A stretch of DNA of 64,000 nucleotides. It comes from Buddleja alternifolia. Its lineage: Eukaryota; Streptophyta; Magnoliopsida; Lamiales; Scrophulariaceae. Below, piece after piece: positions 652 to 43,675 of the stretch. Both the position numbers and the translations under genes were made by a program. Position 1 is the first letter of the stretch; each line of letters opens with the position of its first letter. The notes below the pieces were generated by a model. It worked only from the letters and a program-made list of their open reading frames with translations. It did no database searches and had not been told where the DNA came from. The stretch is from NCBI GenBank assembly GCA_019426215.1, contig CM033393.1, positions 27,468,591-27,532,590 of the forward strand, read 5' to 3'.

Positions 652-1588
652 TTGCAACAACAATGGTTAAAATGAATCTCAATTTCTCAACTACTCAAAT
701 CAACCCGAATGCAACCAACCCAACACAACAATCGTCAACGCCCAACAACACACCAAAATCAGAGAGCAACCCACAATCCAGCAACAATATATCACAAATT
801 AAACAACAACAAACCACAAATCGACAACAACCCACAAATCGATAACAACCCTCTAATCCAATAAATTCCTCAAATGCAACAAAAACCCACAATCGAACGA
901 AGCCCCAAATAATCCTCAAAATATAACGTAAGGCACCTACTCGTCGGCTATGAATCGAAAATGGAAGAACGGTAAAGCCAAAACTCACCTTTTTCCCCAA
1001 AATTATCGCACCGAGTCGGATGTGAACGAGGAGCCACTGTGCAGCGAGTTATGTTGATGGAAAGTGGCGGTGAAACACGGTGGAAATGGCTGGAAATGGT
1101 GAGAGAGTCGCCGGAAATCGCGTGGGAGAGGAGTTGTGAAGAGTTTGTGAAGAATTTTGACCGTTTTGACCCACAATTAGGTTTAAATCAGAAACGGGCG
1201 CCTAGGCGTGCGTATTTGGGCGCCTAGGCGCGCGACACAGCGTACCTGGATTTTTAAGTGAAACTTTCCGCGCCTAGGCGGGCGTCTTTCGGCGCTTGGG
1301 CGGTCCTTTCAGAAACATGTTGAAACACATAGGCGCTATGGGCGCCTAGGCGCGCGTCGATAGGCGCCTAGGCGGGCTCTTCAGAAATATTTTGTAAAGA
1401 ATTTCCATTTCCTGTTTCAAAAGGGGAAAGACAAAACACTTAAAACACAAACTAACAAAGATTTAAGACTAGAAAATAAAGCAACAAACGGGATAATAAG
1501 AGAAAAAGAAAAGGAAACGAAAAGAAAACATGGGTTGCCTCCCAAGAAGCGCTAGTTTAGAGTCATTAGCTCGACTGAAGGCGAAGAA
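652..1588 (-). other. Non-coding spacer of element A between pol and ORF3
   Basis: Downstream of the pol stop the minus strand carries the complement of 'gggttgcctcccaagaagcg' (about 1530-1550), a stretch I recognise as common just after pol in plant Athila-type elements. Next come three 22-bp-phased palindrome doublets (1197-1374, listed separately). 700-850 is low complexity, rich in CAA on the plus strand, with a short tandem repeat of 'cgacaacaacccacaaat'. A minus-strand frame over 695-1000 is an artefact of this low complexity. No convincing gene is seen here. Confidence 0.6.
1197..1374. repeat. Phased palindrome array 1 (three doublets, 22-bp pitch)
   Basis: Six 12-bp imperfect palindromes of the form GGCGCCTAGGCG lie at 1197, 1219, 1269, 1291, 1341 and 1363. 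Each doublet has an exact 22-bp start-to-start distance (12-bp palindrome plus 10-bp spacer), while the three spacers differ. The distance between doublets is 72 bp from 1197 to 1269 and 72 bp from 1269 to 1341, so the doublets also form a 72-bp tandem repeat. The same 72-bp period is seen in the gag array at 5457-5634. Confidence 0.85.
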
Positions 1589-4342
1589 TCACGGAGGGTC
1601 CGCAAGGATGAAGGACTCTTTGTCTCTCGGTCCATCCATCCCTAAGTAAGGTTTTAGACGTTGAGCGTTGACCAAGAAAGTATGTCCTTTATCTTTTGTA
1701 AGCTCGACGGCACCGGATGGATAGACATGGGAAATAAAAAATGGGCCCGACCATCGAGACTTAAGCTTCCCGGGGAAGAGTCGGAGTCTAGAGTTGTATA
1801 GCAACACCCGCTCTCCCTTGTGAAATTCCCGGGGGAGAATATGTTTGTCATGCCACATTTTGGTCCGCTCCTTATAGAGTTTCGCGTTCTCATAGGCGAG
1901 ATGACGCCATTCTTCGAGCTCGTTGAGTTGTAGCAAACGTTGTGTACCTACACGTTGAGAGTCAAAATTTAGAAACTTAATGGCCCAATAAGCACAATGC
2001 TCAAGTTCAACGGGCAAGTGACATGTTTTGCCAAAAACAAGACGATATGGGGACATGCCAATTGGGGTTTTATAGGCGGTCCGATAAGCCCAAAGAGCAT
2101 CATCCAATTTAAGGGACCAATCCTTTCTTGATGCGTTGACAGTTTTTTCTAAAATACGCTTAATCTCCCTATTTGAGACCTCCACTTGGCCACTAGTTTG
2201 TGGGTGGTATGGGGTCGAAATTTTATGCTTCACCCCGTACTTGGTCAATAAAAGTTCAAACTGCTTGTTGCAGAAGTGGGTGCCCCCGTCACTAATGATG
2301 GCTCGGGGAGTTCCAAATCGAGTAAAAATATGCTTCTTCAGAAAACGAGTGACAACACGAGCATCATTAGTAGGCAAGGCCACGGCTTCCACCCATTTGG
2401 AGACATAGTCTACTGCAACAAGGATATATTTATTTGAACAAGAACTGGGGAAAGGGCCCATGAAGTCCACACCCCATACATCAAACAACTCACACTCTAA
2501 CATGCTATTTAAGGGCGTTTCATGATGTTTAGAGATGTTCCCCATTCGTTGACAGCGATCACAAGATTTGACATAATGATGTGCATCTTTAACAAGAGTA
2601 GGCCAGAAGAAACCTGATTGGAGGATTTTAGCTACCGTTTTGGAGGGCCCAAAATGGCCACCCACCGCCATATCATGACAATGAGATAGGATAGCATGCA
2701 CGTCCGTTTCGGGTATGCAACGTCGAATTAAGCCATCTGCACAAACTTTGAATAGAAAGGGTTCGTCCCAAAGATATTGCTTCACATCAAATAGAAATTT
2801 CTTCTTTTGATGAAAAGTGATATCCGGGGAAAGACGGCCCGTAACAATGTAATTGGCAAAGTTAGCATACCAAGGTGAAATTTTGTCAGAAATAGCAAGG
2901 AGGTGTTCATCCGGGAATTCCTCACGAATTGGTATCTCATCTAACGGATCATTCACTAGCTCTAATCGTGAGAGGTGGTCGGCTACTACATTTTCGGTGC
3001 CTTTCTTGTCTTTTATCTCTAAATCAAATTCTTGGAGTAACAAAATCCACCTAAGAAGTCTTGGTTTAGCATCTTTCTTGGCAAGCAAATATTTTAAAGA
3101 CGAATGATCGGTGTAAACTATCACTTTGTATAGCACGAGGTAAGAGTGGAATTTATCGAATGCAAAGACTATGGCTAGTAATTCTTTTTCCATGGTGGCA
3201 TAATTCAATTGTGCATCGTTAAGAGTTTTACTAGCATAGTAAATGGTTCGAAATACCTTCTCCTTCCTTTGGCCAAGGACCGCTCCAACCGCGGTGTCAC
3301 TCGCATCACACATCAACTCGAATGGTAAGCTCCAATCGGGGGGTGACATGATAGGGGCGGAAACTAAGCGTTCCTTCAAATCAAGAAAGGCTTGCATACA
3401 AGAAGAATTGAAATCAAAAGGTGCATCTTTGACAAGCAAATTAGACAACGGTTTCGCAATTTTAGAGAAATTCAAGATGAATCGCCTATAGAAACTGGCA
3501 TGCCCGAGAAAACTCCTAACAGCTTTGACCGAAGTGGGCGGGGGAAGTTTTTCAATGACCTCAATCTTGGCTTGGTCCACTTCGATCCCTTTTTGAGAGA
3601 TCTTGTGGCCAAGCACAATCCCCTCCCGGACCATTAAATGACATTTTTCCCAATTCAAAACAAGGTTGGTTTCCTCACAACGTTTAAGCACAACATTTAA
3701 ATGAGCAAGACAAATATCAAAAGTTGTTCCGAATACAGAAAAGTCATCCATAAAAAATTCAAGGAAATCTTCAACCATATCATGAAAAATAGCCATCATG
3801 CATCTTTGAAAAGTGGCCGGGGCATTACACAAGCCAAATGGCATCCTTCTATAAGCAAATGTGCCATAAGGACAAGTGAAAGTGGTTTTCTCTTGGTCCT
3901 CGGGATCTATGGAAATTTGATTATAGCCGGAGTAACCATCTAGAAAACAATAGAAATCATGCCCGGCTAATCGTTCAAGCATTTGGTCAATAAAGGGGAG
4001 GGGGAAATGATCCTTACGGGTGGCATCATTCAACTTACGGTAATCTATACACACACGCCACCCACTAAGTATACGAGTTGGGATTAGCTCATTATTCGCA
4101 TTCTCAATTACCGTTGTCCCCCCTTTCTTAGGCACCACTTGGGTAGGGCTCACCCATGCACTATCAGAAATAGGATAGATTATACCTGAATCGAGCAGTT
4201 TAATCACTTCCTTCTTTACTACCTCTTGGATTTGTGGGTTTGACCTCCTTTGGGGTTGGCGTATAGGCTTGGTGGAGTCCTCCATAAGTATTTTGTGCAT
4301 ACATATCGCTGGACTAATGCCTTTGATGTCCGCAAGTTTTCA
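1589..4342 (-). pseudogene. pol: Pol of element A: reverse transcriptase, RNase H, integrase
   Basis: Part of the gag-pol polyprotein; it copies the element RNA into DNA and integrates it. From the methionine at 4300 the frame is open for 903 residues. [13 protein letters not shown] near 81-91, [11 protein letters not shown] near 119-129, and the YXDD box as FMDD at 183-186. RNase [12 protein letters not shown], then [10 protein letters not shown] and ADHLSRL. Integrase: an HHCC-type finger ending CDRCQR, then the D,D,E residues in WGVDFMG, IISDGG and GQVEVSNRE, and a C-terminal [16 protein letters not shown] (GPY/F-like). The frame joins the upstream part except for a TGA at 4340-4342 where AFGW would be expected (TGG to TGA). 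The stop at 1589-1591 looks natural. Catalytic residues all appear kept, so RT and integrase were probably functional until recently. Confidence 0.92.
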
Positions 4343-6150
4343 CCCAAAAGCCCGTTTGTGAGATCTCAATACCGTCATTAATTGCTCTTCTTGTGATCCT
4401 GAAAGAGATGAGGAAATGATCAATGGGAGTGTTTCATCGTCGTTCAAGTACACATATTTAAGGTGGGAGGGGAGGGGTTTGAGTTCGAGAGAGGGGGGTT
4501 CTTCAATAGATGGGAGAGGTGCTCCCGACAATGATCTATCAACTTTGATGGAGCCTCCCGAATGAGAGGAAGATTTGTACTCCAAGCTTAGAACTCTTTC
4601 CACTAGATCATCTCTCTCCGAGTCCACTTGCATGGATTTCATAAGATCCTGTTCGAGAGAATTTTCAATTGTATTGTCCTGTAAATACTCAACAATCAAC
4701 GGGTCAAATGTATCAATTCGATAACACGAGTCATGATCAATAGGGTGGTTAAGGACTTTGTAAACATCAAAGGTAACTTTGTCATCGCCCACATTCAAGG
4801 TAAGCTTACCATTAGCAATGTCAATTACCGCCTTACCCGTGGCTAGGAATGGTCTCCTTAGGATTAATGGTACCTCCACATCTTCTTCCATATCGAGTAC
4901 CACGAAATCAACGGGAAAATAAAACTTATCGACTTGGACAAGAACGTCTTCGATTATCCCCTTGGGCCTCTTGATTGATCAGTCGGCTAGTTGAAGGCTC
5001 ATTGAGGTCGGCTTGGGATTTCCAAGGCCTAGCTTTTTAAATAGTGAGTATGGAAGAAGATTGATGCTGGCCCCCGAGTCACATAACAACTTCTTGAACG
5101 ATAAGGACCCAATCGTGCACGGGATTGTGAGGCTCCCGGGATCTTGGAGCTTAGTTGGCAATTTATTGAGCAATACGGCGGAGCATTTTTCCGTGAGGCA
5201 CACCGTCTCATTCTCCTCCCACTTCTGCTTGTTGGAGAGTATGTCCTTGAAGAACTTCACATAATTCGGCATTTGGAGAATGGCGTCAATAAACGGAATA
5301 TTAATTCTCACTTCCCGAAGGATTGCCAAAATTCGAAGAAAGCTCGGATCCATCTCCTTTTTCTTCTTTTTGTGAGCATTTGGGAAGGGGAGACGAACTT
5401 CGATAGGGGGAGAAAGCGTTGGATTAGACGGATGAAAACCCACTGAAACAGGAGGCGGCGCCTGGGCGTGTATGTCAGGGCGCTCGGGCGCGGGATTCAG
5501 AACAGATGCATGTGGCAGAGTTGTGGGTGGCGCCTGGGCGCCATCAGAGGGGCGCTCGGGCGCGGGATTCAGTGAATCCTGTCCAGAACAGGGGAGATCA
5601 AGCGCCTGGGCGTGCAAGTCGGGGCGCTCGGGCGCGGATGTACTGGCAGTGTCACTCTCCAATTGTTTGCCACTTCTCAAGGCTATGGCATTGCATTGGG
5701 CCTTCGGGTTCTTTTCCGTGTCGCGTGGGAGAGTCCCCGGGGCTCTACCGTTAACCGCATTAGACAGTTGCCCCACTTGTGTTCGCAAATCCTTCATCTC
5801 CATACACATATCCTTTATCATACCCCGAAGTTCGTTGAAAGATGTATCGGACTTTTTCATGTGAGCATCTAGTTTCTCATCGATTGTGGGAGGTCGCATT
5901 TGCACTTGACCTTGACCTTGTCCATTGAAATTGCCTTGCCTCGGGGGTGGGTTATTGAAAGGTGGCCGTGGAGCTTGATAGATCCCCGGTTGTGCGTTCT
6001 GTGCGGGGTTGGGCCTTTTTGGAAAATTCTCGGGTACATGAAAGTTCACCCGAGGTTGATTTTGATTCCCCACATAATTAACATTGCCAACCTCTGGTTC
6101 CAAGACTACTACTCCCTCAACTACTTCCTCAATACAAGCAACCTTTTTTA
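4343..6150 (-). pseudogene. Gag C-terminal part and aspartic protease of element A
   Basis: Same frame as pol. The segment 4979 to about 6150 has a proline/glutamine-rich stretch, a helical region (DEKLDAHMKKSD to VGQLSNAVN), the conserved AIALRSGKQL, three 24-residue repeats with the pattern APERP-x3-AQA, a lysine run, and the protease active site LLCDSGASINLLPYSLF. TGA at 4979-4981, directly after LQLAD, interrupts the protease; reading continues in the same frame from 4978 to 4343 with VVLDMEEDVEVPLILRRPFL, the usual second half of the fold. No CCHC zinc knuckle was seen, which is common in Athila gags. The start of this segment is set by a frameshift in an A-tract near 6145-6150, so it has no start codon of its own. 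Confidence 0.85.
5457..5634 (-). repeat. 72-bp coding tandem repeat in gag carrying phased palindromes (array 2)
   Basis: Palindrome units start at 5457 and 5479, 5529 and 5551, 5601 and 5623. Each pair has the 22-bp pitch, and pairs repeat every 72 bp (24 codons). In the minus-strand reading frame this gives three 24-residue peptides starting APERPDLHAQAL, APERPSDGAQAP and APERPDIHAQAP. The nucleotide palindromes (GGCGCCTGGGCG and GGCGCTCGGGCG on the plus strand) are better kept than the spacers. It is the only copy of the motif in the window that lies in coding sequence. Confidence 0.85.
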
Positions 6151-7004
6151 GAGGATGAGGCCTCTTCATCGTCGGGGTAAAGCTCGTCTTCTCGGGCCAA
6201 CTGTTCGACTTTGTCCCATACACTTTGACAGTCTAACCCAAGGAGATCTCCTCCCGCACCCGCGTTGAGTCTATGCCGAATACGTGACCTAACCCCATCA
6301 TAGAAGTGGAGTACTTGTTCATTCAACCCAAAATTATGATCGGGACATTTACGGAGCATGCCCTTATATCTAGCCCAAGTCTCGGCTAAAGACTCATTGC
6401 TCCTTTACCTAAACCCTTTTATATTACTCCGGAGCTCATTGATTTTGGAGGGTGGAAAGAATTTATTTAAAAAGGCATTGACCAACTCACCCCATGTTGT
6501 AATAGATTGTGGAGGTAAGGATTTGTACCATGTTGTCGCCCTATCCTTCAATGAGAAATGGAAAACTCTTAGACGAATTGCATCAAGATCCCGTGGGTGA
6601 TATTGAATGGTCACAAGAGCATCGTCTATAGTCTCTAAATGAGCGTGAGGTGATTCGTCCGGTTCTCCATAGAAAGGTTCTCCTTGCACCATATTAAAAA
6701 TGTGAGCCGGAATGTGGTAGTTTGGTGCAAAAAAGTTAGGCACGACCACGGGCCCCGGAATAGTATGGACCCTAGGTGGTAAGCTACCCCGAACCGACGG
6801 GAGTTGTGGAGGAGGTACCGCTTGCATGGCTTGTAGAACACCTTGTAACCACTCCCTAGTTTCCGGTGAGTTCATGTCCGGGAAATTTCCATTCGGGTTT
6901 TGGTTGAGATTATTGGCCATTTCTCTTGCTCGCCTACTAGTCCGAAGAACTCGTTCAATTTCGGGCTCCAACTCGTATAGAGGCTTGTTTGAGGAGCGGG
7001 TCAT
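6145..7004 (-). pseudogene. gag: Gag N-terminal part of element A
   Basis: The structural protein of the virus-like particle. The likely start is the ATG at 7004 (MTRSSNKPLYELEPEIERVL), not the upstream in-frame methionine at 7055, because homologous plant gags begin close to this acidic helix. Core features are HLETIDDALVTIQYHPRDLDAIRLRVFHFSLKD-like sequence, ATTWYKSLPPQSITTW and ELVNAFLNKFFP, the usual retrotransposon gag domain. TAA at 6405-6407 interrupts FR-RSNESLAETW (probably from CAA). The frame continues in phase to KCPDHNFGLNEQVLHFYDG, then is lost at an A6 tract (6145-6150): five A residues would restore phase, so one base was gained. A programmed shift is less likely. Confidence 0.88.
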
Positions 7005-7138
7005 GCACCTCAAGAACCTAACAATTAAATACAAGAACAAAATTAGACTAAACACGAAAATAAAAGAGAGTCAAGAAATAAACGAAAACTAAGAATTATG
7101 AAAAATGTAAACGAAAATCAAAAACTAAAATAAACAAG

Positions 7139-7156
7139 TCCCCGGCAACGGCGCCA
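7139..7156 (-). promoter_or_regulatory. Primer binding site of element A (tRNA-Asp type)
   Basis: The minus strand reads TGGCGCCGTTGCCGGGGA, 6 bases after the LTR end. This 18-mer is the form complementary to the 3' end of plant tRNA-Asp that Athila-type elements use to prime minus-strand DNA synthesis. It fixes the orientation of the element and the inner boundary of the LTR. Confidence 0.9.
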
Positions 7157-7162
7157 AAAACT

Positions 7163-8887
7163 TGACACGCTAATACCTAACGTGCTTTTAATAGCAAGTG
7201 CACTAGTCGTGTGTAGTAATAAAAGTGGACAAAATAAGTCCGGGTTGTCGAACCACGGAGACTTGAATTTTTGTTTATGATTAATGAAAATGGACAAAAG
7301 TAAATTGCAATAAAACGAGTAAGCAAGTGAAGAACCAAAGAGAAACAAACTATAGATTAAATCTCACGTATGATAAAATGACTAAGGCACATGCTACAAC
7401 CGAATCTACTCGTCAATATAGATGAGCTACTCTTCGAATTATTAGACTCCTATTGCTTTGGTGAAAATTCCTTAGATAATTATTACCCGATGTCTCGGCA
7501 CATAATAATCCTATGATTAATTGATGGTTCTCTAAATATGTCTATCTGAGAATCTAATCAATAACCACGCATTAACGTTCTAGAGTTTCCCCGGATATAT
7601 CCGGCTAACCGCACCCGGAAATCTTTACCTATGTTTAGGGGCAATTCCACATTAGTTTCGGATGATGAGTTGATTCCATTGAACCCTAATCTATCTTCTC
7701 TCGAATGACTAGACTAGGCAAGATAGCAAGCATATGGTGATCAAGCACATGATTGTAATAAAAGCTCAAAATCAACACACAAAGCAATATGAGAATTAAT
7801 ACGAAAATTCACTTCACATATATTGATTCATAAATTGGCCTTCACATGGCCTTAGTTCTACAATATTAGCCTCTCATCAAGGCCTTAAGAAAATCTAATA
7901 CAAACATATACATACTCATGGAAATAAACATGTAAATGCAAGCAATTAAAACTCCCTCAATTGATTGATGATGGATCCTTGCTTTTGAACTTCAATCCTT
8001 AGCTCCTCTCTCTTTGTTCCCCTCCAAAAGTGATGAAGAATGGTGATGAATGATGATGGGTGAAGAGTAATGGCCAGCTGCCTCCTCCTCCAAGGTGTGA
8101 TCGGTCAAGAGTGAAGAAAATGGCTTAAGAAGACCAGAAAATGATGGGGTCCCTAGTGTGTGTCTCCCTAGTGTGTCCTTCACTACTCTAAAGTGTGTAG
8201 TATAAAATTCCATAAAGTAGATCTACCAAGAAACACACTTATGACATCCCCTCAACACATGTGATGACCTCTTGGCTTTAAATGTTCCATTCCACCATCA
8301 AATGATGATCTTTTGGCTGAAAGGAATCAAAACTCGGGTGTGGTCACGCCTAGGCGTGGGCATTACGGCGCTCGGGCGCCGCTGACAGAATGCCGAAATT
8401 AAATGCAATGTGTCCTGCGCAGCAATCGTATTTCATTCATAACTCTCTCCACGAAACTCCGATTTGGATGATTCAAGTCCTCATATGAAGCTAACACATA
8501 GTTTTACAACATTGTAGAAGGGAACTTCATCCAATTCGGTCTCTAAACATACGAAAATAGCGCTCGAACGTGGAAAGTGGTGCAGATACGGCGCCTAGGC
8601 GTGGATAGGACGGCGCCTAGGCGTGGTAAGCAGAATGTTGACGTTATTTGCATCTTGTCCAGCGCCTGGGCGTGGTCATACTGGCGCCTGGGCGTGGTCG
8701 ACAGAAGCAAATTGTCCTGAACTTGTTTTATACGTCGTTTTTCGCCTCGTTTCTTCGTATGCTTTCATTTATCACCTGTAATCACTTAACAGCCCGATTA
8801 AACGCAAATGTGGCATGATTTAGGCAATAAATGAATCCATAGCATAAGTCTCATGGGCTTAAAAACACGTAAAAATGCCTCTTATCA
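7163..8887 (-). repeat. 5' LTR of element A
   Basis: On the minus strand it runs from TGATAAGAGGCATTTTTACG (8887) to TTAGGTATTAGCGTGTCA (7163), giving TG...CA ends. Length about 1725 bp. Both ends match the LTR at 9634-10988 (opposite orientation) and, more weakly, the solo LTR at 15041-16448. It contains three phased palindrome doublets (8345-8694). The minus-strand frame at 7992-8213 and others inside it are not genes. Confidence 0.9.
8345..8694. repeat. Phased palindrome array 3 in the LTR of A
   Basis: Units start at 8345 and 8367, 8590 and 8612, 8661 and 8683. Every pair has the 22-bp pitch. Sequences are CGCCTAGGCG or CGCCTGGGCG cores, with one CGCTCGGGCG. The second and third doublets are 71 bp apart. 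The array lies in the 5' third of the LTR as transcribed, which would be U3. Confidence 0.85.
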
Positions 8888-9633: not shown

Positions 9634-10988
9634 TGATAAGAGGCGTTTTTACGTTTTTTTAAGCCTATGATATGATATTGTTGGAGTTATTTATTGCCTA
9701 AATCATGCCACAGTCGCGTTTAATTAGGGTGTTAAGTGATTTCAGGTGATAAACGAGAGCACACGAAGAAAAAGGCGAAAAACGGTGCACGACACTTTTT
9801 GAAGCCTGTCGACCACGCCCAGGCGCCGAGCTGACCACGCTCGGGCGCCCATCAAGAACAACAAACTTGATCCCTGTTGACCGCGCCTAGGCGCCGTTAT
9901 TCCCGCGCCCGAGCGCCGTACTTTCCACGCCTGGGCGCCGCCGGACTTCTCCCCCAAGAAAAGTACGCCACGTAGGCCGCGCCTAGGCGCCGTCTTGCCC
10001 GCGCCTAGGCGCCGGCGTAACCGTTTTTCAATTGTTTAAAAGCCAAATTTCAGAGAGAAAAGGGGGTTCGAAAATCTGGGAATTGGAGGCACTTTGCTGG
10101 GTTTTTGAGCCACAATTTCATCAACAATTGAAGGGGAAGAAGGGGGATTGAGCTAGAGATTGAAGCTACAAGCAAGGATTCATCATCATTCAAAACTTAG
10201 GGAGTTTCTTTTGCATTTCATTTACATGTTTATGTTAATAACTATGTATATGATTGTTTTAGACCTTCTTGAGCTATTGAATATGAGCTAATCTTGTAGA
10301 ACTAAGGCCATGTGAAGGCCTAATTTACAAATCATTATATGTGAAGTTAATTTTCGTATTAATTCCCCTATTGCTTTGTGTGTTGATTTTGTGCTTTTAT
10401 TCCAATCATGTGTTTGATCACCATATGCTTGCTATTGTGCCTAATCTAGTCATTCGAGAGAAGACAGGTTAGGGTTCAAAGAAATCAACACATCATCCGA
10501 AACTAATGTGGAATTGCTCCTAGAAATAGGTAAAGATTTCCGGGTGCTGTTAGCCGGATTTATCCGGGGAAGCTCTAGAACGTTAATGCGTGGTTATTGA
10601 TTAGATTCTCGGATAGACATATTTAGAGAACCATCAATCAATCATAGGATTGTTATGTGCCGAGACATCGGGTAATAGTTAATTAAGGAGTTTCCACCAA
10701 AGCAATAGGAGTCTAATAATTCGAAGAGTAGCTCACGTATATTGATGCGTAGATTAGGTTGTAGCATGTGCCTTAGTCGTTTATCGCTCTTGATTTTTAA
10801 TCTATAGTCTGTTTCTCTTTGTTCTTCGCTTGTTTCTCGTTATAGTGCAATTTACTTTCGTCCATTTTCATTAATCAAAAGCTAAAAATTCAAGTCCCTG
10901 TGGTTCGACAACCCGGACTTTTAGTCCACTTTATTACTACCGCGACTAGTACACTTGCTATCAAAGCACGTTAAGTATTAGCGTGTCA
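9634..10988 (+). repeat. 3' LTR of Athila-like element B
   Basis: Runs from TGATAAGAGGCGTTTTTACG to TTAAGTATTAGCGTGTCA, about 1355 bp. It is the same LTR family as 7163-8887 but in the opposite orientation, so the two LTRs form a large inverted repeat with a 0.75-kb centre. At 10989 the sequence changes abruptly to minus-strand copia gag, so B inserted into copia C. The 10500-10988 part carries the conserved end seen in all three Athila LTRs ('ggttcgacaacccggactt'). Confidence 0.88.
9816..10013. repeat. Phased palindrome array 4 in the LTR of B
   Basis: Seven units CGCCYRGGCGCC start at 9816, 9838, 9884, 9906, 9928, 9980 and 10002. Pitch is 22 bp within the groups 9816-9838, 9884-9906-9928 and 9980-10002. 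The 52-bp step from 9928 to 9980 is also seen in the solo LTR array (16030 to 16082). The triplet shows that the 22-bp unit can extend. Confidence 0.88.
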
Positions 10989-15040: not shown

Positions 15041-16448
15041 TGACATGCTACAAGCTAACGTGCTTTAGTAGCAAGTGCACTATTCGTGTGTAGAAATAAG
15101 TGTACGGTAAGTCCGGGTTGTCGAACCACAAGAACTTGAATTCTAGTTTATGATTTTCGATAACAAAAGGAAGTAAATTAGAGATTTAACTAAAAAGGAA
15201 AGTAAAATAAGCTAAAGCGAAAGTAAAGAGAAATTAAACATCCAATGTGGAGAGGTGACTAAGGCTCATGTTCGGGCACATGTTGCGTATTGCTATCCTA
15301 AGATCATTACCAATTCATTAGACATAGATTGCTATGGTAAAAGCTCCTAAGGTAAAGAATAACCGATGTCTCGTGATAGACTCCTATACTTAATTGGCGA
15401 TTTCCTAAGTATGTCTACCTGGGAATCTAACCACTAAGCATGCATTAAAGAACTAGAGCTTTCTCGATTAAAATCGAACGATTTCACCTGGGAATCTTTA
15501 CCTATGTCTAGGGCAATTCCTATTTGGTCGGTGATGTTGTGAAATTCTTGCACCCTAAGTCAACTTTCTCTCGAATAATTCACCTAGGCATGATATCAAA
15601 CACATGGTGATCAAGCATATGTAAGGCATTCAACCACAAAATCACAACACATAGCAATATATGAATTGAAATGGAAAACGATCTTATTATCACAATACTA
15701 ACAACATGGCCTTCTCATGGCCCTAGTTCAACAATTTAGCTCATAAAATGCATAACGAAAAAGCTAAGCATAAGATCCATGTTCATAGACAAAGATGAAT
15801 CTAAAGCTAAGAAACTCCCTATGTTGAATTGATGATCGAATCTTTAATTGGAGTCTTGAATCTCTTCTTTCCCTTCTCTTTTGCTCTTTAAAAGTGATGA
15901 AAAGTGAGGTCCCAATACCAAAAAATCCCCAAAATTGACTTAGAATTTGAACCCCCCCCTTTTTTTCCTTTCATTTTTGGCCTTTATACATTCAAAACCG
16001 CTGTATCAGCGCCCAGGCGTGACCTAAATGGCGCCTAGGCGCGGTCCAGGTGGACTAAATGGCTTGGGGAATAAGTTGACGGGCGCCCAGGCGCGGGTGA
16101 GGAGGCGCCTAGGCGCCGGATGCAGAGTCTGAACCGTTTTCTTGTTTTTCAGCGCATAAATTGTATTTTCTTCATAACTTTCTCCACGGACCTTGGATTT
16201 CGATGATTCAAGTTGCCACGTGAATCCCAGACGGAGTTCTACAACGTTCTAGAAGAAACCTTCCTCAAATTCGATTTGAAAATATACTGAAATACTGTGT
16301 TTTTGTGCACTTTACGTCGATTGCAGTGATTTTCCACCTTTACTCAATAAACACATAGATTATAAGCATATGTGGCATAATTCAAGCGATAAATGAATTT
16401 AAAACATAAACGTAAGGGCTTAAAAACATGTAAAAATGACTCTTATCA
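15041..16448 (-). repeat. Solo Athila-like LTR inserted in element D
   Basis: Plus-strand ends are TGACATGCTACAAGC and ATGACTCTTATCA, so the LTR lies on the minus strand (TGATAAGAG...CATGTCA). Length 1408 bp. The flanks are GTTCC (15036-15040) and GTTTC (16449-16453), a 5-bp target duplication with one change. The copia frame continues across the insertion (protease end ...GTVHRGN on one side, MISDVYYVEGLKHNLLS-like on the other). There is no internal sequence, so it arose by LTR-LTR recombination. It is related to the LTRs of A and B but more divergent. Confidence 0.88.
16008..16115. repeat. Phased palindrome array 5 in the solo LTR
   Basis: Units start at 16008, 16030, 16082 and 16104: two doublets with 22-bp pitch, 52 bp from second to third unit. 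Cores are GCGCCCAGGCG and GCGCCTAGGCG. The position in the LTR corresponds to that of arrays 3 and 4. Confidence 0.85.
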
Positions 16449-23151: not shown

Positions 23152-25276
23152 TGTTGGGTTGACTCATTCCCTCGGGTGGCTCGTGGTAGCGGAAATTAAA
23201 AAATTTCAAAAGTAAACGTACAACCACCCAAAAACAGGAATATGGAATTGGTTCGATCGAATTTGATAAGGAGGTAAGCGAAATTATACCTTTCAAAAAT
23301 TTGGTTTCACCTCGTACTTTGGATCTCAGCAACCCTGTGGTGCAAATCCACACAATTTCCCTTGGGTGAGAAATTGCCCGTTATCTTTTCGTATCTCCCG
23401 GTTTAGAGTGCTCCAAGCGTCGCACCTCTAAGATGTATCCACACCTCGTTCAAGTCACCAATCGTCTTGCCTTGCGTGCTAGACAACAAAACGATTCTAA
23501 GCTTAACTTAGGCTTGATTATGTGAAGGGTAGGAATATTTTCTAAGTCGTTTAATTCAACACATGAATAGAACGACGTCTTGTTGGAAAGGGAGAAGGTG
23601 GCCGATTTTTAGGTTAGGGAAGGGGGGAGGATTTTCCAGCAATTATTCATCATCCTTTTAGTCTTCTTCATCTCTTATTTATAGGTGAAGATTACCTAGA
23701 GTCCTATTAGGAAAAGGAAACTTCCTTTCTCCCAAACTCTCTAGTAATCCTTATCCTGTGAAGACTTGGAGGAGGGGAAAACTCTTTTCCTCCTCCACCA
23801 CACATAAAAAAAAAAAAAAACGCCCCCTCCCTTATTTACTCATAAAATTGGTCAACACAAGTCAATTGGATTCTAGGATTTAATTTTGACTTCTCAATTT
23901 AATTATAGGTTCAACCCATCAATTAAATACAAGTCAAATTAAATCCAACCAACTACTTCCAACATTTATTTATTTTACTTGGGCTCTACCCAATTAAATA
24001 AAATACTTGGACTCTACTAGATCCATTAATTTAATTAATTCTACAAGATTAATTAAAAGAGTACAATTAATTGAATCCTTCAATTAATTTATATTCCATA
24101 TTAGGAAAGTACCAAACTTTCCTAATTCCCTCAATTTCCTCGAAATTGATTAATCACATCTATTCAAGCAGTGACTCTCTCGAGTTAGTGTGTGACCCCT
24201 TAGGCTCGTTTCTATCTAGTAGTAAGTACACCTTCTCACAGTGCTAGTGTACCTTCCTAAAATGGAAAGTACTAGATTAAATCAATCCTTTGATTTAATC
24301 AAGCCTCGAATTAGTCACCAAGCTAATTCTCGGCACTGAGAAATCGCGGTTCCCCACCTAGCATAGGGTCCGGAAGACCTAGATAAAACGAAAGTAAAGA
24401 TACGCCTTTTGCGATCTTGATCCTCGCATAAGTAAGATCTCTCTATCTAATCTCCCGATTGAATCTAGAGCATTGGCTAAGGTCGAAGCTCTATTAATTC
24501 AATACTATGCTTCCCACGTTATGTGAAATCGACTTCGACTATCTAAACGAGGAAACCCTACGCCTCTTTAGATATCATACTTCGGCCGAAGATTCCTTAA
24601 GTCGATTCACTATGTAACCATAGGAGATTAGCCGATTGGCTAATGTCAGAGATAGATTCCTCTTGATTCTCACGTGTCTTACTACGTAAGACGTGCATGT
24701 CTGAGTTTGCCCATATTCGATCATCTAAAGTGATCATGTAACAAATCAAGAACATGCGCGGTTACGCATAAGACATCCAATGGAATCTTAGGTCCAAAGG
24801 ATTACTCTTATACTACACGACTGGGAATCCATTTCAGGAACTTCCATGGGGTTGTTCAGTTCGCCCCTTACCACAATGGCAACCCTCATATATGCATTGA
24901 CTTTCACCGTGCCAGTATCTATGGAACGAGATGCACTTCTACCAGAGTATGCATCATATGAGCAAGTCTTTTGGGTTGCATCGATATCCCTTTATCTCGA
25001 TGAACCCTTTCACGACTTGTAACAATGTTTAAAGATCACAGCCTTCGAGACATATTCCATCATTGCCACACCCAATGTGCAATGATGTCCCATAGCTATG
25101 TGTGATTTTTCGGGACTTTATTCTAAGCCAAAGTAAAAAATTAATTTAAGAATAAAGACATGCCAAACATAAAAAAGAGATTGACTTTATTTGTAAGAAA
25201 ACGATTGTTCAACTCTAGAGTTACTATTACAAAGAACGGCGCCCAATAATTGGTGCGCCGGGCACTAACTCTAACA
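23152..25276 (-). repeat. 3' LTR of element E
   Basis: Minus strand from TGTTAGAGTTAGTGCCCGGC (25276) to GAGTCAACCCAACA (23152); 2125 bp. Compared with the other LTR it lacks about 25 bp ('...ccactagaagttccacattc...' is present only at 32560-32585) and has a longer A-run near 23805-23820. ORF-like frames inside it are not genes. Confidence 0.95.
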
Positions 25277-26605: not shown

Positions 26606-29176
26606 TTAGAAGGTTTCCTCATAGTCAATCCCTTGTCTTTGAGTAAATCCTTTTGCCACGAGGCGAGCCTTATAGGTGACTGCCGCTCCATCAACTCCAA
26701 GCTTTCGCTTGTAGACCCACTTATAGCCAATGGGCTTGATGCCCTCAGGTGGGTCAACCAAGGTCCATACCTTGTTGGAGTACATGGAGTCCATTTCGAA
26801 TGTCATGGCCTCTAGCCATCTTCTAGAATCAATGTCAGACATTGCACTCTTAAAACTCTTCGGATCAGAGTCTAGAGGAGGATCTTGAGTGCCCTCCTCT
26901 TGCAATAGGCCTAGCCATCTTTCAGGCTCCTTTGGGATCCTCTTTGATCTCCTCAAAGGTTGTGTGTTTTCAGTGGGTGCCTCTGATGTAGCCTCGTTGG
27001 TGTCGGGTGGGTTAATTTGTATCTCTTGACTTGATCCATTCTTATGGGCCTCATCAAGTTCTACAGCCTCGACTTTCCTATTTAGAAGGTGACCCCTCTC
27101 CAAGAAATTGGCATTTCTCGAAACAATAACCTTTTGTTCCGTTGGGCTGTAGAAGTAATATCCAACAGTTTCCTTTGGATATCCGACAAAATAGCACAAA
27201 GAGAACTTGGGGTCCAATTTGTCTCCCACTAAGTGCTTTACATAAGTTGGAGACCCCCACATTCTCAAATGATTATACGAGGGCGTCTTTCCACACAAAC
27301 TTTCATATGGGGTATTGGGCACCGTCTTGCTGGGCGATCTATTCAACAGATAGACAGCCGTTTCATGAGCATAGCCCCACATGGAGTTAGTAACTTTAGT
27401 GAGACCCATCATGGTTCGAACCATATCTAGCAATGTTCGATTCCTATGCTCGGCTACCCCGTTATGTTGAGGCGTGTCGGGCGATGTCCACTGTGAGAGA
27501 ATTCCATTCTCTCTAAGATAATCAAGAAACTCGGTAGACAAGTATTCTCCTCCTCGATCCGATCGAAGAGCCTTAATACTTCTACCAAGTTGTTTCTCTA
27601 CTTCATTTCCGAACTCCTTAAACTTCTCAAAGGATTCAGATTTATATCTCATAAGATATAAGTAACCAGACCGTGAATAATCATCGGTAAAAGTTATGAA
27701 GTAGCTTTGGCTCCCATGAGTGCTCACACTCATTGGCCCACACACGTTCGTATGGACCAAGTCCAATGGTTTTGTGGCTCGTTTCGCTTTCCTCGAAAAT
27801 GGTAACTTGGTCATTTTTGTTTTAAGACATGATTCGCAACTTAACAATTCATCTAAGTCATTTACACCTAAATGTTTTGCCATTGTTCGAATTCTTTCTT
27901 TGGAAATATGTCCAAGTCTTTCGTGCCACATTTGTGTGTTTACTTGATTATCTTGTTTACGTTTGTTACTTTGTTGAATATTGAGATTGGAAATTATTGG
28001 GGATATAGTATACATTCCATCCTTCATTTTCGATTCCATAACAAGAGACGATTCATAAAACAAAAACAAACTTTTATTACGAATCTCAAAAAAATATCCT
28101 TCTCTATCCAAAATCGGAATCGAGATAATATTTCTTATTATTTCAGGAACAAAATAAACGGAATGTAAAACTAATTTCCTATCTCCCAACTCTAAGTAGA
28201 TTGTCCCCACGGCTTTGGCAGCAGCCAATGCTCCATTCCCCATCCGCAGGGTCATATTTCCTCTATTTAGCTCCTTGGTTCTTTTCATCACCTGCAAATC
28301 ATTGCAGATATGAACACCGCATCCAGTGTCAAAATCCCAAGAAGAATCGTTCACAGTGAAGTTAACTTCAACAAAGAACATACCTTGAGCCGGAGGCTCT
28401 TTGCAGTTCCTTTGCCAGTGCCCAACTTTCCCACATTTGAAGCACTCATCAGACTTTTTAGACTTAGACTTCTTACCCTTCTTCACACCACCATTACCTT
28501 TCTGCTTCTTAGTCTTATTCTTCTTCTTGTTCCCCTTCTTGAATTTTGATGAAGAATTCATAAGAAGCACCAGTTTATCCTTCTTGATGGTGCTTTCTGC
28601 AGTCTTCAACATGTTCAACAGCTCAGGAAGCTTTGCTTCAAGTTGGTTCATGTTGAAATTGACCACAAATTGATCATAAGAGTTAGGCAATGACTGTAGG
28701 ACCAAATCCATAGAAAGCTCATTGTCAAGTGCCACGCCCAGACCAGCCAATTTTTCAATTAGCCCGATCATTTTGAGTACGTGCGCACTTACGTCAGAGT
28801 TTTCAGTCATTCGAGCTTTGAAGAGCTCCTTGGAGATAGCATATCTTTCTCGCCTAGTTCTAGTGCCATACAGCTCTTGCAAATGAAGGAGGATCGACGC
28901 AGCATTCTCGATCGTCTCATGTTGTCTCTGCAACTCGTTGCTCATAGAGGCTAACATGAGACATCGCACTTGCATGTCATCTTCCTTCCATTGTTGGTAC
29001 TGGAACTTTTCATCATCAGCTGAATCCTCTTCCGACTCATCTTGCACCAGTATGTAAAGCACATATTGTCTTCTTTCAGACGAAAGGATAATCTTAAGGT
29101 TACGAAGCCAATCTTCAAAGTTTGATCCAGTCAGTTTGTTTGTTTCAATTAGGGTTTTGAAAGGATTATTGGCCAT
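26606..29176 (-). pseudogene. Gag-protease-integrase-RT(N) polyprotein of element E
   Basis: An open frame of 856 residues from ATG at 29176 (MANNPFKTLIETNKLTGSNF). Gag domain 1-200; basic stretch 205-243; CCHC knuckle CFKCGKVGHWQRNC at 245-258; protease DTG at 283-285 (SWDFDTGCGVHICN); integrase zinc part MWHERLGHISKERI and CESCLKTKM; catalytic core VHTNVCGPM, RSDRGGEYLS and PQHNGVAEHRNRT; RT start ARLVAKGFTQRQGIDYEETF. The first catalytic Asp of integrase is Asn here (AAC, plus-strand 27746-27748; the F copy has Asp). TAA at 26606-26608 replaces the Ser codon in ETFSPVA. Apart from this, the frame is long and clean. Confidence 0.93.
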
Positions 29177-29312
29177 TTTTGTTTATCTACAAAAATGCAT
29201 AACAGACAATCAATAACGGATTTTCAAATAAAGTCGTTATACAATTTGGTCTTTAATTGTACAAGTTTCCCACTATTTTTCTCAAATCATACCACCCTCT
29301 TGACATGATTCG

Positions 29313-30426: not shown

Positions 30427-30480
30427 CGCCTGGGCATGGTCATCCGTGCGCCTGGGCGTGGGTTACCCCACGCCTAGGCG
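30427..30480. repeat. Phased palindrome array 6 in the leader of E
   Basis: Core units CGCCTGGGCA, CGCCTGGGCG and CGCCTAGGCG start at 30427, 30449 and 30471: exact 22-bp pitch over three units. It lies about 405 bp inside the primer site, the same relative place as array 7 in F. Confidence 0.85.
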
Positions 30481-30898: not shown

Positions 30899-33038
30899 TG
30901 TTAGGTTGACTCATTCCCTCGGGTGGCTCGTGGCAGCGGAAATTAAAATTTTACAAAAGTAAACGTACAACCACCCGAAAACAGGAATATGGAATTGGTT
31001 CGATCGAATTTGATAAGGAGGTAAACGAAATTATACCTTTCAAAAATTTCGTTTCACCTCGTACTTTGGATCTCAGCAACCCTGTGGTGCAAATCAACAC
31101 AACTTCCCTTGGGTGAGAAATTGCCCGTCGTCTTTTCGTATCTCCCGGTTTAGAGTGCTCCAAGCGTCGCACCTCTAAGATGTATCCACACATCGTTCAA
31201 GTCACCAATCGTCTTGCCATGCGTGCTAGACAACAAAACAATTCTAAGCTTAACTTAGGCTTGATTATGTGAAGGGTAGGAATATTTTCTAAGTCGTTTA
31301 ATTCAACACATGAATAGACGACGTCTTGTTGGAAAGGGAGAAGGTGGCCGATTTTTAGGTTAGGGAGGGGGGCGGATTTTCCAACAATTATTCATCATCA
31401 TTTTAGTCTTCTTCATCTCTTATTTATAGGTGAAGATTACATAGAGTCCTATTAGGAAAAGGAAACTTCCTTTCTCCCAAACTCTCTAGTAATCCTTATC
31501 CTATGAAGACTTGGATGAGGGGAAAACTCTTTTCCTCCTCCACCACACATAAAAAAAAACGCCCCCTCCCTTATTTACTCATAAAATTGGTCAACACAAT
31601 TCAATTGGATTCTAAGATTTAATTTTGACTTCTCAATTTAATTATAGTTTCAACCCATCAATTAAATACAAGTCAAATTAAATCCAACCAACTACTTCCA
31701 ACATTTATTTATTTAACTTGGGCTCTACCCAATTAAATAAAATACTTGGACTCTACTAGGTCCATTAATTTAATTAATTCTACAAGATTAATTAAAAGAG
31801 TAAAATTAATTGAATCCTTCAATTAATTTATATTCCATATTAGGAAAGTACCAAACTTTCCTAATTCCCTCAATTTCCTCGAAATTGATTAATCACATCT
31901 ATTCAAGCAGCGACTCTCTCGAGTTAGTGTGTGACCCTTTAGGCTCGTTTCTATCTAGTAGTAACTACACCTTCTCACAGTGCTAGTGTACCTTCCTAAA
32001 ATGGAAAGTACTAGATTAAATCAATCCTTTGATTTAATCAAGCCTCGAATTAGTCACCAAGCTAATTCTCGGCACTTAGAAATCGCGGTTGCCCACCTAG
32101 CGTAGGGTCCGGAAGACCTAGATAAAACGAAAGTAAAGATACGCCTTTTCCGATCTTGATCCTCGCATAAGTAAGATCTCTCTATCTAATCTCCCGATTG
32201 AATCTAGAGCATTGGCTAAGGTCGAAGCTCTATTAATTCAATACTATGCTTCCCACGTTATGTGAAATCGACTTCGACTATCTAAACGAGGAAACCCTAC
32301 GCCTCTTTAGATATCATACTTCGGCCGAAGATTCCTTAAGTCGATTCACTATGTAACCATAGGAGATTAGCCGATTGGCTAATGTCAGAGATAGATTCCT
32401 CTTGATTCTCACGTGCCTTACTACGTAAGACGTGCATGTCTGAGTTTGCCCATATTCGATCATCTAAAGTGATCATGTAACAAATCAAGAACATGCGCGG
32501 TTACGCATAAGACATCCAATGGAATCTTAGGTCCATAAGGATTACTCTTATACTACAAGACCACTAGAAGTTCCACATTCGACTGGGAATCCATTTCAGG
32601 AACTTCCATGGGGTTGTTCTGTTCGCCCATTACCACAATGGCAACCCTCATATATGCATTGGCTTTCACCGTGCCAGTATCTATGGAACGAGATACACTT
32701 CTACCAGAGTATGCATCATATGAGCAAGCCTTTTGGGTTGCATCGATATCCCTTTATCTTGATGAACCCTTTCACGACTTGGAACAATGTTTAAAGATCA
32801 CAGCCTTCGAGACATATTACATCATTGCCACACCCAATGTGCAATGATGTCCCATAGCTATATGTGATCCTTCGGGACTTTATTCTAAGCCAAAGTAAAA
32901 AAATAATTTAAGAATAAAGACATGCCACACATAAAAAAGAGATTGACTTTATTTATAAGAAAACGATTGTTCAACTCCAGAGTTACTATTACAAAGAATG
33001 GCGCCCAATAATTGGTGCGCCGGGCACTAACTCGAACA
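30899..33038 (-). repeat. 5' LTR of element E
   Basis: Minus strand from TGTTCGAGTTAGTGCCCGGC (33038) to GAGTCAACCTAACA (30899); 2140 bp. It drives the element RNA. It is related to the LTRs of F over much of its length (for example 'ggatatcgatg' and 'ccatagatactggcacggtg'). Confidence 0.95.
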
Positions 33039-33466: not shown

Positions 33467-33684
33467 ACCTCGCCGCTTGGAGTGCCTCGCGGATGGGTGT
33501 CATGAGTCTACGTGTTACATTGCTTGCGGATTGCCTCGCGGCGTGTTGCCTTGGGGCTCTCTCCCGAGGTTACTTGCCTCCGGGTAATTCTTCATGGTCT
33601 TTGTTACTTCTACTCACTTTTCCACTATTAAGTCTTGTGGAATATTTTATATAAGTCCACAACTAGGAGATAAGAAGCGTATTG

Positions 33685-39117: not shown

Positions 39118-39150
<33 letters not shown>

Positions 39151-39450
39151 TTAATATATTTATCCTATAATATATTTGGTAGATCTACTCTAATTAATTA
39201 GGTAACTAATTGATATGGAAAGATCTTATAAATATATATATATATATATATATATTAGGATAAATATTGAAGATATGGAAAAATCTTATTTGATAAGATA
39301 TGATATATTTGATATGTATCAAATATATGAGATTACGAGTATCTTCATGTTCATTACACTTGGAATGAAAGGGGTTGTTTCATAATATCCTACCTTCAAG
39401 GTGAAGGAATTCTTTATGAAGGAATAGGGATAGTAATGAACACGAGGGAC
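37800..39450 (+). repeat. Left LTR of copia-type element I, right boundary uncertain
   Basis: Starts TGAAAGTGTTATGTGCCCAG at 37800. The first 545 bp align with 40507-41051, which is preceded by a polypurine tract, so both are LTR starts and the element is on the plus strand. Beyond 38344 the copy to compare is missing. The later part is AT-rich with TAATTAAT words and three (TA)n tracts (39028-39043, 39123-39150, 39231-39256). The style resembles the LTRs of E and F. The right end (about 39450) is a guess. Confidence 0.55.
39028..39256. repeat. Three (TA)n microsatellites
   Basis: Runs of alternating TA at about 39028-39043, 39123-39150 (interrupted by a C) and 39231-39256, in AT-rich DNA assigned to the left LTR of I. 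Confidence 0.8.
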
Positions 39451-40506: not shown

Positions 40507-41051
40507 TGAAAGTGTTATGTGCCCAACGAACCATCTGTTGGCTTAAACATTAACACTGTGTCAGTCTTATCATTCAGATTATATCAAAACTTGTTAAGGA
40601 ATGCTTCTTTATTGTTATAACTAGTGTTAGTATAGATAAAGATCTCATGGATTACATATGGTTAGGGGAGCGGTTAGGATACATATAGAATGCTCTCGAA
40701 GAGCGTAATCCTAAATCAGTTCCAAGTCATAGAGGATGTGAGATGTGGGATATCATTGGCCTCGTCAAGACTTGTTTATGTGTGTAACTCTCCCAAGAGG
40801 TTGACGCGTTTCATTGTCAAAGGCTGGTATGCCCAATGCATGCATGAAGATCTATACTATGGTATGGGATTGAACAACCCCGTAAGGATACATCATTGGT
40901 GTTGTCGAACTTGGAGTCCTTCAGTTTTCGTAGTGTGAGATAATCCTTAGACTTGAGATGTCATTAGAGAGGGTGTTACCCACTCTGCTTTGATATGCAC
41001 GTGTACTCCAGCAAAGTCATACGATGTGTATCTTAGGTATAGTCTGGTAGT
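40507..41051 (+). repeat. Right LTR of element I, interrupted by element F
   Basis: Starts TGAAAGTGTTATGTGCCCAA and aligns to 37800-38344 up to 'ggtatagtctggtagt', where the F LTR begins at 41052. The continuation expected from the left copy ('tacagccgaata') is not found at the right end of F, so DNA was lost there. The frame at 40690-40938 is not a gene. Confidence 0.75.
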
Positions 41052-43127
41052 TGTTAGAGTTTAAGCCCGCCGCACCAATTTTGGGTGCCATTCTATATAA
41101 TAATAACTCTAGCTGAACGATCTTTTTCATATAAAAAAAGTTAATCTGTTGGCATTCTTTATTCGTGTATATAGCTTGGTCTTAACTTAGAATAAAGTCC
41201 TGAAGGATCACACATAGCTATGGGACATCATTGCGCATCGGGAATGGCAATGATGGAATATGTCTCCAAGGCTGTGATCCTTAAACATATGTTTCAAGTC
41301 GTGAGAAGAGATATCGATGAGACCCAAAAGGCTTACTTATATGATGCACACTCTTGATAGAGAGTATCTCGTTCCATAGATATTGGCACGGTGAAAGCCT
41401 ATACATGTATGAGGGTTCCTATTGTGGGAATAGGTATACTAAACAACCCCATGGAAGTTCCATTAAATGGAATCCCAATCGAATCTGGAACTTCCACTGG
41501 TCTTGTAGTATAAGAGTAATGCCTAGAACCTGAGGTTCCATTGGATGTCTTATACACAATCGAACATGTCTTGGTTTGTTACATGATTACTTAAATGATC
41601 ACAAATGGGCAAAATTAGACATGGGCTGACTGTGTATGAAGGCACATGAGAATCAAGATGGGATCTATCTCTAACATTAGTCTTGTTAGTGAATCTCGTA
41701 TATTTACATAGTGAATCGACTTTAGGAATCTTTAGCCGAAGTATGATATCTAAAGAGGCATAGGGTTTTCTCGTTTAGATAGTCAAAAGTCGATGTCACC
41801 GTATTTGGGAAACATAGTTATTGAATTGATAGAGCTTCGACCATAGCCACTGCTATAGATTCAATCGGGAGATTAGATAGAGGGATATTACTTATACAAG
41901 GATCAATATCACAAAAGGCATATCTTTATATTCGTCTTTATCTAGGTCTTCGTGGCCCGTTCTAGACAGTAACCACGATTTGTAAGTGCCGAGAATTAAT
42001 ATGGTGATTAATTTGAGGCTTGATTAAATCAAAGGAATGATTTAATCTAGTACTTTCTATTTTAGGAAAGCACACTAGCACTTTGGGAAAGTGTACTTAC
42101 TACTAGATAGTAGACGGGCCTAAGAGGTCACACACTTAACTCATGAGAATCACTGCTTAAATGATGTGATTAATCAATTTGAGGAAATTAGGAAAGTCTA
42201 GTCCTTTCCTAATAAGGAATATGAATTAATTGAGGCGATTTAATTAATTCAACTATTTTAATTAATCTTGTTGAATTAATTAAATTAATGGACCTAGTAG
42301 AGTCCAAATATTTTATTTAGTTGGGCTTGGCCCAAGTTAAATAAATAATCTAATTGGAATAAGTAATATATATAATTAAACTGATTTTAATTATATGGGA
42401 ATATTTAATCGATGGGTTTAGCCCATAATTAAAAATGGAGTCAGGAATAATTCTTGGGTTCCAATTAAAGAATGATGGCCGATTTTTGAACCAAAACATG
42501 AGAGGGGTTCGAATTATTGGAGAAGAAGAAAAGGGTTTTCTTCTTCTCCAAGTTTTGGAGTTGGATTAGGATTCTAAGACTCCTATTTTATATATATGTG
42601 AATGTAAGACTAAAACCGAAAGCCTCCTATGAGTGTAAAATTCAAACCCTAGCTGGAAAAAGAAGAGAGTGTTTTTTTTTTTTTGTCATCCTTCAGAAAA
42701 CGCCCCCTACCTTGTTCCAATACGACATCGTTTTGTTCATGTGTTGAACTCAACGATTCACATATTCCATCCCTTTACATAATCAAGCCTAGGTTTTAGA
42801 CACAGATCTAGTTCGTTGGCTAGCACCAATAACGAAGTAGGTGGTGACTTGAACGAGGTGTGGATACATCTTAGAGGTGCGACGTTTGGAGCACTAACAC
42901 CTGGGATATGATTGATGGGCGATTTCCTCCAAGAAATCGTGTGGACTTGCACCACAGGGTTGAAAAGATTCAAATCGCTGCTGCGAGAATTTAATCGAAA
43001 GGTAAAAATTCTCGTAACCTTCTTTATAGCGTAATCGAGCACAACATTATTCCTGTTTCGGGTGGTTGTATGTTTAAATTTTAATTCCGCTGCCACGAGC
43101 CACCCAAGGAATAGAACCAACCCAACA
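41052..43127 (+). repeat. 5' LTR of element F
   Basis: TGTTAGAGTTTAAGCCCGCC to GAACCAACCCAACA, 2076 bp, followed after one base by the primer site. It aligns closely with 48773-50813. The ORF-like frames at 42517-42747 and 42758-43120 lie in the LTR and are not supported as genes. Confidence 0.92.
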
Positions 43128-43128
43128 G

Positions 43129-43141
43129 TGGTATCAGAGCC
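43129..43141 (+). promoter_or_regulatory. Primer binding site of element F
   Basis: TGGTATCAGAGCC one base after the LTR, the initiator tRNA-Met type as in E. Confidence 0.92.
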
Positions 43142-43537
43142 ATGGTTGGCTCGATTAAGCTATATTATGTGTTAGCATGTTTTATTTACGCATATGTAAA
43201 TTGGTGCATGTTAAAAATATGTTCGTCGTTTAGAATAATTAATTTTTTGATTAATTATTGGTACATATAATTGATTATTTTTGTGAAAAACGGTTTTGGT
43301 TTTGAAAATTCAATTGAAAAGGATGAATCTTGGGTGTGTGTGGATTTATTTGGATGGTGAAGGATGATTTTGGAATCACCGGTGGTAGGACGTCGCGAGA
43401 TGATCGGGCCGAAGGCTCAATTGTTGAGTGATTATGCCTGGCCCGAGGTGGGATCAAATTCGTCCATCATTAACTGAACGAATCACTCATGATTGAAAAG
43501 GGGAGAAATCCCGTTCAGCAACAGGTGCTGTCACCTG

Positions 43538-43675
43538 CACCCAGGCTCGGGGTGACTGGCGCCCGGCCAGCGAGACCTGGTGGTCTCGCCTCTGTCTGGC
43601 GTCTGGGCGCGTCAATGTTGGCGCCTGGGCACCTTCAGGTCAGCGCCCAAGTGTGGGTCTGCTGGCACCCTGGCA
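43538..43675. repeat. Phased palindrome array 7 in the leader of F
   Basis: Cores start at 43538 and 43560 (22 bp apart), then 43600, 43622, 43644 and 43666 (three further steps of exactly 22 bp). Between them, at about 43571-43588, is another palindrome CGAGACCTGGTGGTCTCG. Several cores are decayed (CGTCTGGGCG, CGCCCAAGTG, CACCCTGGCA), yet the pitch is unchanged. It is the longest row of units in the window. Confidence 0.82.

Follow-up and report, generated by a model that had tools for sequence, protein, structure and literature searches.

A 64,000 bp stretch of the Buddleja alternifolia genome (assembly GCA_019426215.1, contig CM033393.1, positions 27,468,591 to 27,532,590 of the forward strand), referred to here as the window, contains seven arrays of a short GC-rich box, found within long terminal repeat (LTR) retrotransposons. 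The core common to all of the arrays is CGCCYRGGCG, or RCGCCYRRGCGY when flanking positions are included. The original prediction had described a palindromic word recurring at an invariant 22 bp pitch in elements of two superfamilies. Boxes are present at all seven of the places it named, and Ty3/gypsy and Ty1/copia domains, as identified with Pfam, flank the arrays; the word itself, GGCGCCYRGGCG, is not self-palindromic. The relevant features are as follows, with open reading frame abbreviated to ORF and reverse transcriptase to RT.

1..666, minus strand: extra ORF matching PF20167, putative plant transposon protein (Pfam E 1.4e-18), which exits the window
1182..1187, minus strand: TTTAAA, a putative TATA-like hexamer, about 21 bp past the last box start in the sense direction
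1197..1374, no strand: array of three pairs (steps of 22, 50, 22, 50, 22), between pol and the extra ORF of the minus-strand gypsy element
1589..4339, minus strand: RT, RNase H and integrase of the Ty3/gypsy element (Pfam)
4979..6232, minus strand: gag C-terminal ORF, with homology to gag/protease proteins of plant retrotransposons, the linker of which holds an array
5457..5634, no strand: array of three pairs within the gag ORF, with pair boxes in two frames (APER / HAQA or GAQA)
6405..7070, minus strand: gag (Retrotrans_gag, Pfam)
8345..8694, no strand: LTR array of type A in the minus-strand gypsy element, consisting of one pair, a 223 bp step and two pairs
9816..10013, no strand: LTR array of a plus-strand element, with seven boxes (steps of 22, 46, 22, 22, 52, 22)
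10035..10040, plus strand: TTTAAA, 33 bp past the last box start
15983..15988, minus strand: TATAAA, 31 bp past the last box start
16008..16115, no strand: LTR array of type B, with two pairs (22, 52, 22), sense minus by homology to type A
26606..29182, minus strand: gag to the start of RT of a copia element (Pfam)
30427..30480, element on minus strand: three boxes (22/22) in the leader of the Ty1/copia element with LTRs at 23152-25276 and 30899-33038
43538..43675, element on plus strand: leader array, in part decayed, of a second copy of that copia group, with LTRs at 41045-43067 and 48765-50802

In the Ty3/gypsy element, arrays occupy the LTR, the gag ORF and a third site downstream of pol, and all three are present together at another locus in the genome (L011). 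The arrangement of gag, RT/RNase H and integrase, with an extra ORF following pol, marks the Athila-like clade and is present here; 'Athila-like' and 'Tork-like' are provisional labels rather than tree-based assignments. No Pfam match was found for the gag C-terminal ORF at 4979..6232, and the best-scoring gag homologue has 47% identity. A sequence search with the PF20167 ORF returned a single homologue above threshold, likewise from Buddleja alternifolia, at 39% identity. PF20167 is also found after the 3' array of locus L028, at 5896-7230 (Pfam E 4.7e-26), and PF20167-like stretches occur in five of the 31 sequences searched (the window, L023, where it is interrupted, L024, L025 and L028), all five lying 523-604 bp downstream of a 3' array. 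Boxes are also present in two other LTR-like groups, represented by L010 and L015. Two of the loci have a repetitive structure on a larger scale: at L027 (710-9113), a 3.3 kb unit with LTR-type arrays is arranged head-to-tail at 98-99% identity, possibly representing an element array generated by unequal recombination, while at L011 (554-1706) tandem repeats, evident as many offset self-matches of 74-86% identity, lie directly 5' of a stretch homologous to the LTR.

In the Ty1/copia group, the boxes lie in the leader between the 5' LTR and gag, and the 22/22 spacing is found in 20 of 21 copies (allowing two mismatches per box). Those of the partly decayed array begin, at up to three mismatches, at 43538, 43560, 43600, 43622, 43644 and 43666. 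In one copy (L046, 175-184 of the reverse-complemented locus) the leader spacer GGGGTAACCC instead has the reverse-complement sequence GGGTTACCCC, as would result from inversion of the segment enclosed by two palindromes.

The box arrays are real and far exceed chance expectation. There are 35 occurrences of CGCCYRGGCG, with at most one mismatch, in the window, against a mean of 1.16 and a maximum of 4 in 100 dinucleotide shuffles, and pairs of boxes 22 bp apart (three mismatches or fewer) occur 19 times in the window and never in 100 shuffles. Pattern counts were extended to the whole 853.6 Mb assembly (429 contigs, both strands), in which exact GGCGCCYRGGCG-N10-GGCGCCYRGGCG pairs number 3,100 on the forward and 2,884 on the reverse strand; these 5,984 matches do not correspond to as many distinct places, because the nearly palindromic word can match both strands. 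The reversed control of the same pair had no match anywhere in the genome. The seven window arrays have a GC content of 0.51-0.72, compared with 0.35-0.48 in their flanks, and the observed to expected ratio of CpG is above that of the flank in five of the seven and below it in both copia arrays.

The 22 bp pitch is dominant, as had been claimed, but it is not invariant, since pitches of 20, 21, 23 and 27 bp are also present. Neighbour distances were taken from the window and 30 further loci (L009-L038) using the core CGCYYRRGCG with at most one mismatch, giving 156 neighbouring boxes at 22 bp; when the choice of loci was corrected for by removing 69 pairs of the type on which it was based, 108 of 148 distances between 12 and 35 bp were exactly 22. 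Genome-wide, exact boxes with spacers of N0-N9 number 793 and 709 on the two strands, and the first 100 matches listed comprise 84 with N8, 15 with N9 and one with N7, the N8 spacers among the matches listed being mostly of one sequence type. Spacers of N11-N30 give 1,163 and 1,056 matches, the first 100 listed including 55 at a distance of 42 bp, 23 at 27, 10 at 23 and 12 others; the 42 bp distances are as a rule those of second neighbours, separated by a 20 bp and a 22 bp step. A second sample was drawn blind to the boxes: a stretch lying upstream of a pair and itself without boxes gave 40 matches, from which 20 LTR copies were taken. Each of the 20 retains one or more pairs at 22 bp, with no more than one mismatch per box.

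The 10 bp spacers differ, as originally described: 46 distinct sequences were found among the first 100 exact 22 bp pairs listed, and this diversity implies that the arrays are not a single long conserved repeat. When the spacers of the window and L009-L078 were grouped by complete linkage at 60% identity, a pitch of 22 was found in 35 of 54 lineages; complete linkage replaced single linkage at 7/10 letters, which had merged nearly all of the spacers. The higher-order layout is one of pairs, with steps of 22, ~50, 22 and ~50 bp, and of the 78 neighbour gaps between 40 and 54 bp that were left in the window and L009-L038, 73 fall at 44-52 bp, five being at 44 bp (2 x 22). The proposal that all of the palindromes face one side of the helix is weakened by these out-of-register gaps, most pairs being 46-52 bp apart, and by the pitches of 20, 21, 23 and 27 bp.

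Because three does not divide 22, the boxes of a pair within the gag ORF fall in two reading frames. The linker that holds this array aligns poorly with the gag of other plants, and the pair signature is present in none of 120 gag homologues among the matches listed (149 found). The two-frame reading and the homologues lacking the signature speak against a cause at the protein level, so the common feature is a nucleotide word rather than a peptide.

One homologous set of LTRs, made up of the type B, 9.8-kb, L022/L017 and L025/L026 groups, has a TATA-like hexamer 31-34 bp after the start of the last box in all 12 of its members (TATAAA in eight, TTTAAA in three and CATAAA in one); these related LTRs form about four subgroups and are not independent, and the four hexamers searched for were picked after some of the sequences had been inspected. 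The background frequency of a TATA-like hexamer at that distance is 0.0076 per position in the same stretches. Among the ten 3' arrays, TATAWA is found at +19, +19 and +32 in three, and inspection shows TTTAAA at about +21 in another three. The fixed place of the boxes before the hexamer lends support, in one LTR group only, to the earlier idea of a shared enhancer.

The boxes also outlast the spacers in divergent LTRs. An alignment was made of nine segments less than 93% identical to one another (19 found, 10 redundant ones removed; mean identity 0.717), to which the window and L016 each contributed two. Identity is 0.951 at the fixed letters of the boxes, compared with 0.591 in the spacers and 0.708 in the remainder.

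Arrays at different sites in the gypsy element share sequence beyond the boxes. A 25 bp module with a 17 bp linker (at most three substitutions) is present in the same sense orientation six times in 3' arrays (L012, L021, L028) and seven times in LTR arrays (L024, L071, L072, L074-L077), the LTR origin of L071-L077 following from their having been fetched by an LTR stretch. This common module indicates that the arrays exchange pieces, and that the boxes mark the ends of what is shared. Defining sharing as equal length of at least 15 bases and at least 80% identity, linkers are common to different array classes only between 3' and LTR arrays, plus one match between a 3' and an unclassified array. 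Arrays also differ between related copies: that of L067 is short of one box and spacer, equivalent to a 22 bp step, and L069, L071, L072 and L074-L077 contain a different (exchanged) array; where the sequence extends far enough, an apparent second copy of the upstream segment comes next. No spacer sharing was found between copia and gypsy arrays, the best of 12 x 112 comparisons agreeing at 8 of 10 letters, a score of at least 8 being reached in 106 of 200 shuffles. The suggestion that the repeat spreads by conversion is thus supported between gypsy-element arrays, through the shared module, and not between copia and gypsy, whose spacers resemble each other only at chance level.

The reading we favour, to which about an even chance is given on the strength of these patterns in the DNA, is that the boxes constitute a promoter-proximal array of sites for a putative dimeric DNA-binding protein, reshuffled by recombination. 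The protein would be a sequence-specific factor of the host plant, with each box consisting of two half-sites, CGCYY and RRGCG, and the dominant 22 bp pitch suggests a working unit of two boxes about two helical turns apart. Units in the gypsy LTR, which in several LTR groups lie just 5' of a TATA-like hexamer, would most likely regulate the genomic transcript, and those upstream of the PF20167 ORF would probably regulate a second, internal transcript; in the copia group, such boxes lie in the 5' leader. Growth, shrinkage and exchange of arrays could result from recombination, or from template switching by reverse transcriptase, at the identical boxes.

A number of observations weigh against this interpretation. 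No TATA-like hexamer was found at the corresponding place in type A LTRs, the TATA of L015 and L036 is 121 bp away, and TATAWA is present in none of the 12 stretches read for gag arrays. The excess conservation of the boxes in divergent LTRs is not unique to their layout, as 14 of 206 alternative placements score as high, ranking the boxes 15th of 207. In the younger families it is small or nil: in 21 copia copies, identity is 0.955 in boxes, 0.940 in spacers and 0.961 and 0.940 in the two flanks, and in 12 copies of the type B LTR it is 0.954 in boxes and 0.935 elsewhere, a pattern compatible with selection on active lineages and drift in dead copies. Constraint on spacer length was not seen in the nine divergent segments (0.046 gaps per substitution, compared with 0.026 and 0.0 in the flanks), and the loci L001-L038 were themselves selected for holding pairs.

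The leading rival, though one we consider unlikely, is that the boxes belong to a functionless GC-rich repeat module that spreads by slippage, gene conversion and template switching, with its pitch inherited within each module. Much of the evidence for exchange would be expected under such a process, including the linker module common to 3' and LTR arrays and the changes of array length in whole steps (L067, and three versus six boxes in copia), as would the alternative pitches of 20, 21, 23 and 27 bp and box conservation within families that is hardly above that of the flanks. It accounts less well for boxes that, despite their CpGs, outlast spacers in divergent LTRs (0.951 against 0.591), for their regular position ahead of TATA-like hexamers in one group of LTRs, or for the restriction of cross-class linker sharing to 3' and LTR arrays and the single match between a 3' and an unclassified array. 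Next in rank, and improbable, is that the boxes bind a factor acting on chromatin or against silencing, in the manner of VANC; the element might encode this factor itself, with the PF20167 protein as one candidate. VANC, a protein of VANDAL DNA transposons, has short tandem target motifs that turn over between related transposable elements (PMC5735166), and such a role would suit both the distribution of arrays along the element, in LTR, gag and 3' region rather than at the promoter only, and the proximity of the PF20167 ORF to the 3' array. However, nothing was found that ties PF20167 to DNA binding; its structure model had a mean pLDDT of 32.2, too low for use, and the window copia elements carry boxes, yet a tblastn search of the window with PF20167 matched only positions 1-663.

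The last of the ranked alternatives, which we judge more doubtful again, is that a box pair acts as RNA, forming a hairpin with a 12 bp stem and a 10 nt loop that could be a signal for small RNAs, packaging or dimerisation. The self-complementary boxes can pair, those on the antisense strand at 11.2 of 12 positions when G-U is allowed; the copia leader spacer GGGGTAACCC could itself fold into a short hairpin; and the palindrome-rich LTRs of Sireviruses have been tied to small RNAs (as cited in PMC10760457). However, when real partners were compared with re-dealt ones on both strands across 109 distinct box pairs, no covariation between boxes was found, the real partners being the less complementary both in sense (9.84 versus 9.92) and in antisense (11.20 versus 11.28), with shares of 0.987 and 0.985 of the null at or above the observed values. 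Neither was any found within boxes, the two halves of which vary independently (4.96 versus 4.96). Taken alone, the gag class leans towards pairing, though not significantly (antisense 11.735 versus 11.659, 0.081). Among sense-strand variants in the LTR, gag and 3' arrays of the window and L009-L038, there are 85 cases of G>A at position 7, which breaks a pair, against 22 of C>T at position 4, which would keep a G-U pair, an asymmetry that may derive from a few ancestral boxes. The missing covariation argues against RNA hairpins and leaves hairpin and cruciform alike unsupported; Rfam, similarly, has no match in the window at gathering scores.

If a host factor does bind the boxes, a single protein could control much of the genome's transposon load, through one word with a preferred spacing in both gypsy and copia elements. 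An extension of the binding-site reading that we think improbable is that one factor acts as a common switch for both superfamilies, each having gained the code separately, at LTR and internal promoters alike; at its boldest, the factor would be the PF20167 protein, and retrotransposons would then have their own equivalent of the VANC system. To our knowledge, proteins recruited to plant retrotransposon promoters are known for few families. The box pair might serve as bait for finding such a protein, and the arrays as a test case for regulatory modules jumping between elements.

Searches of the open-licence literature found no published description of this motif, but the original statement that no described element has these properties needs qualification, as the LTRs of Sireviruses contain GC-rich palindromic repeated boxes (PMC2829016). 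The Sirevirus repeated motifs (RM boxes; Bousios et al. 2010, PMC2829016) are likewise GC-rich palindromes with many copies per element. They lie in the LTR upstream of TATA, as the boxes here lie before a TATA-like hexamer in one LTR group and not in type A, and in the linker before the extra ENV gene; the extra ORF preceded by 3' arrays here is that of PF20167. They are also said to form CpG islands and to be common to elements of low overall similarity (PMC2829016). However, they have a CGG-CCG signature in place of the CGCC-YR-GGCG core, and are called Sirevirus-specific and absent from classic retrotransposons (PMC2829016), whereas the boxes described here are hosted by Ty3/gypsy elements with PF20167 and by a group of Ty1/copia elements. 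An array in gag distinguishes the present elements, and fixed 22 bp pairing is not mentioned for the Sirevirus boxes in the part of the paper available (PMC2829016). The arrays therefore resemble Sirevirus boxes most in place and build and fail to match in two defining features, core and host lineage; what is new is a different core, in other lineages and in two superfamilies.

The main palindrome of maize Copia elements, CACCGGACNNNGTCCGGTG, is also the commonest motif of the structured regions of Helitrons (PMC10760457), and so is another case of one palindromic word in unrelated superfamilies of a single genome. Its sequence differs, and it is defined by predicted RNA structure, with fixed pairing undescribed in the accessible text (PMC10760457). 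The targets of VANC are alike in being a short motif accumulated as tandem repeats with fast turnover, but the motif is YAGTATTAY, the hosts are DNA transposons and the binding protein has been shown (PMC5735166), whereas the present arrays are known from sequence. Finally, a tandem unit at the soybean Rps1-k locus, GCTCGCCTGGGCGAGCTGA, present in 1.9 copies of 19 bp (PMC2330051, Table 4, in the part seen), holds CGCCTGGGCG in tandem and names no element there; with a unit of 19 bp, it is a lead only.

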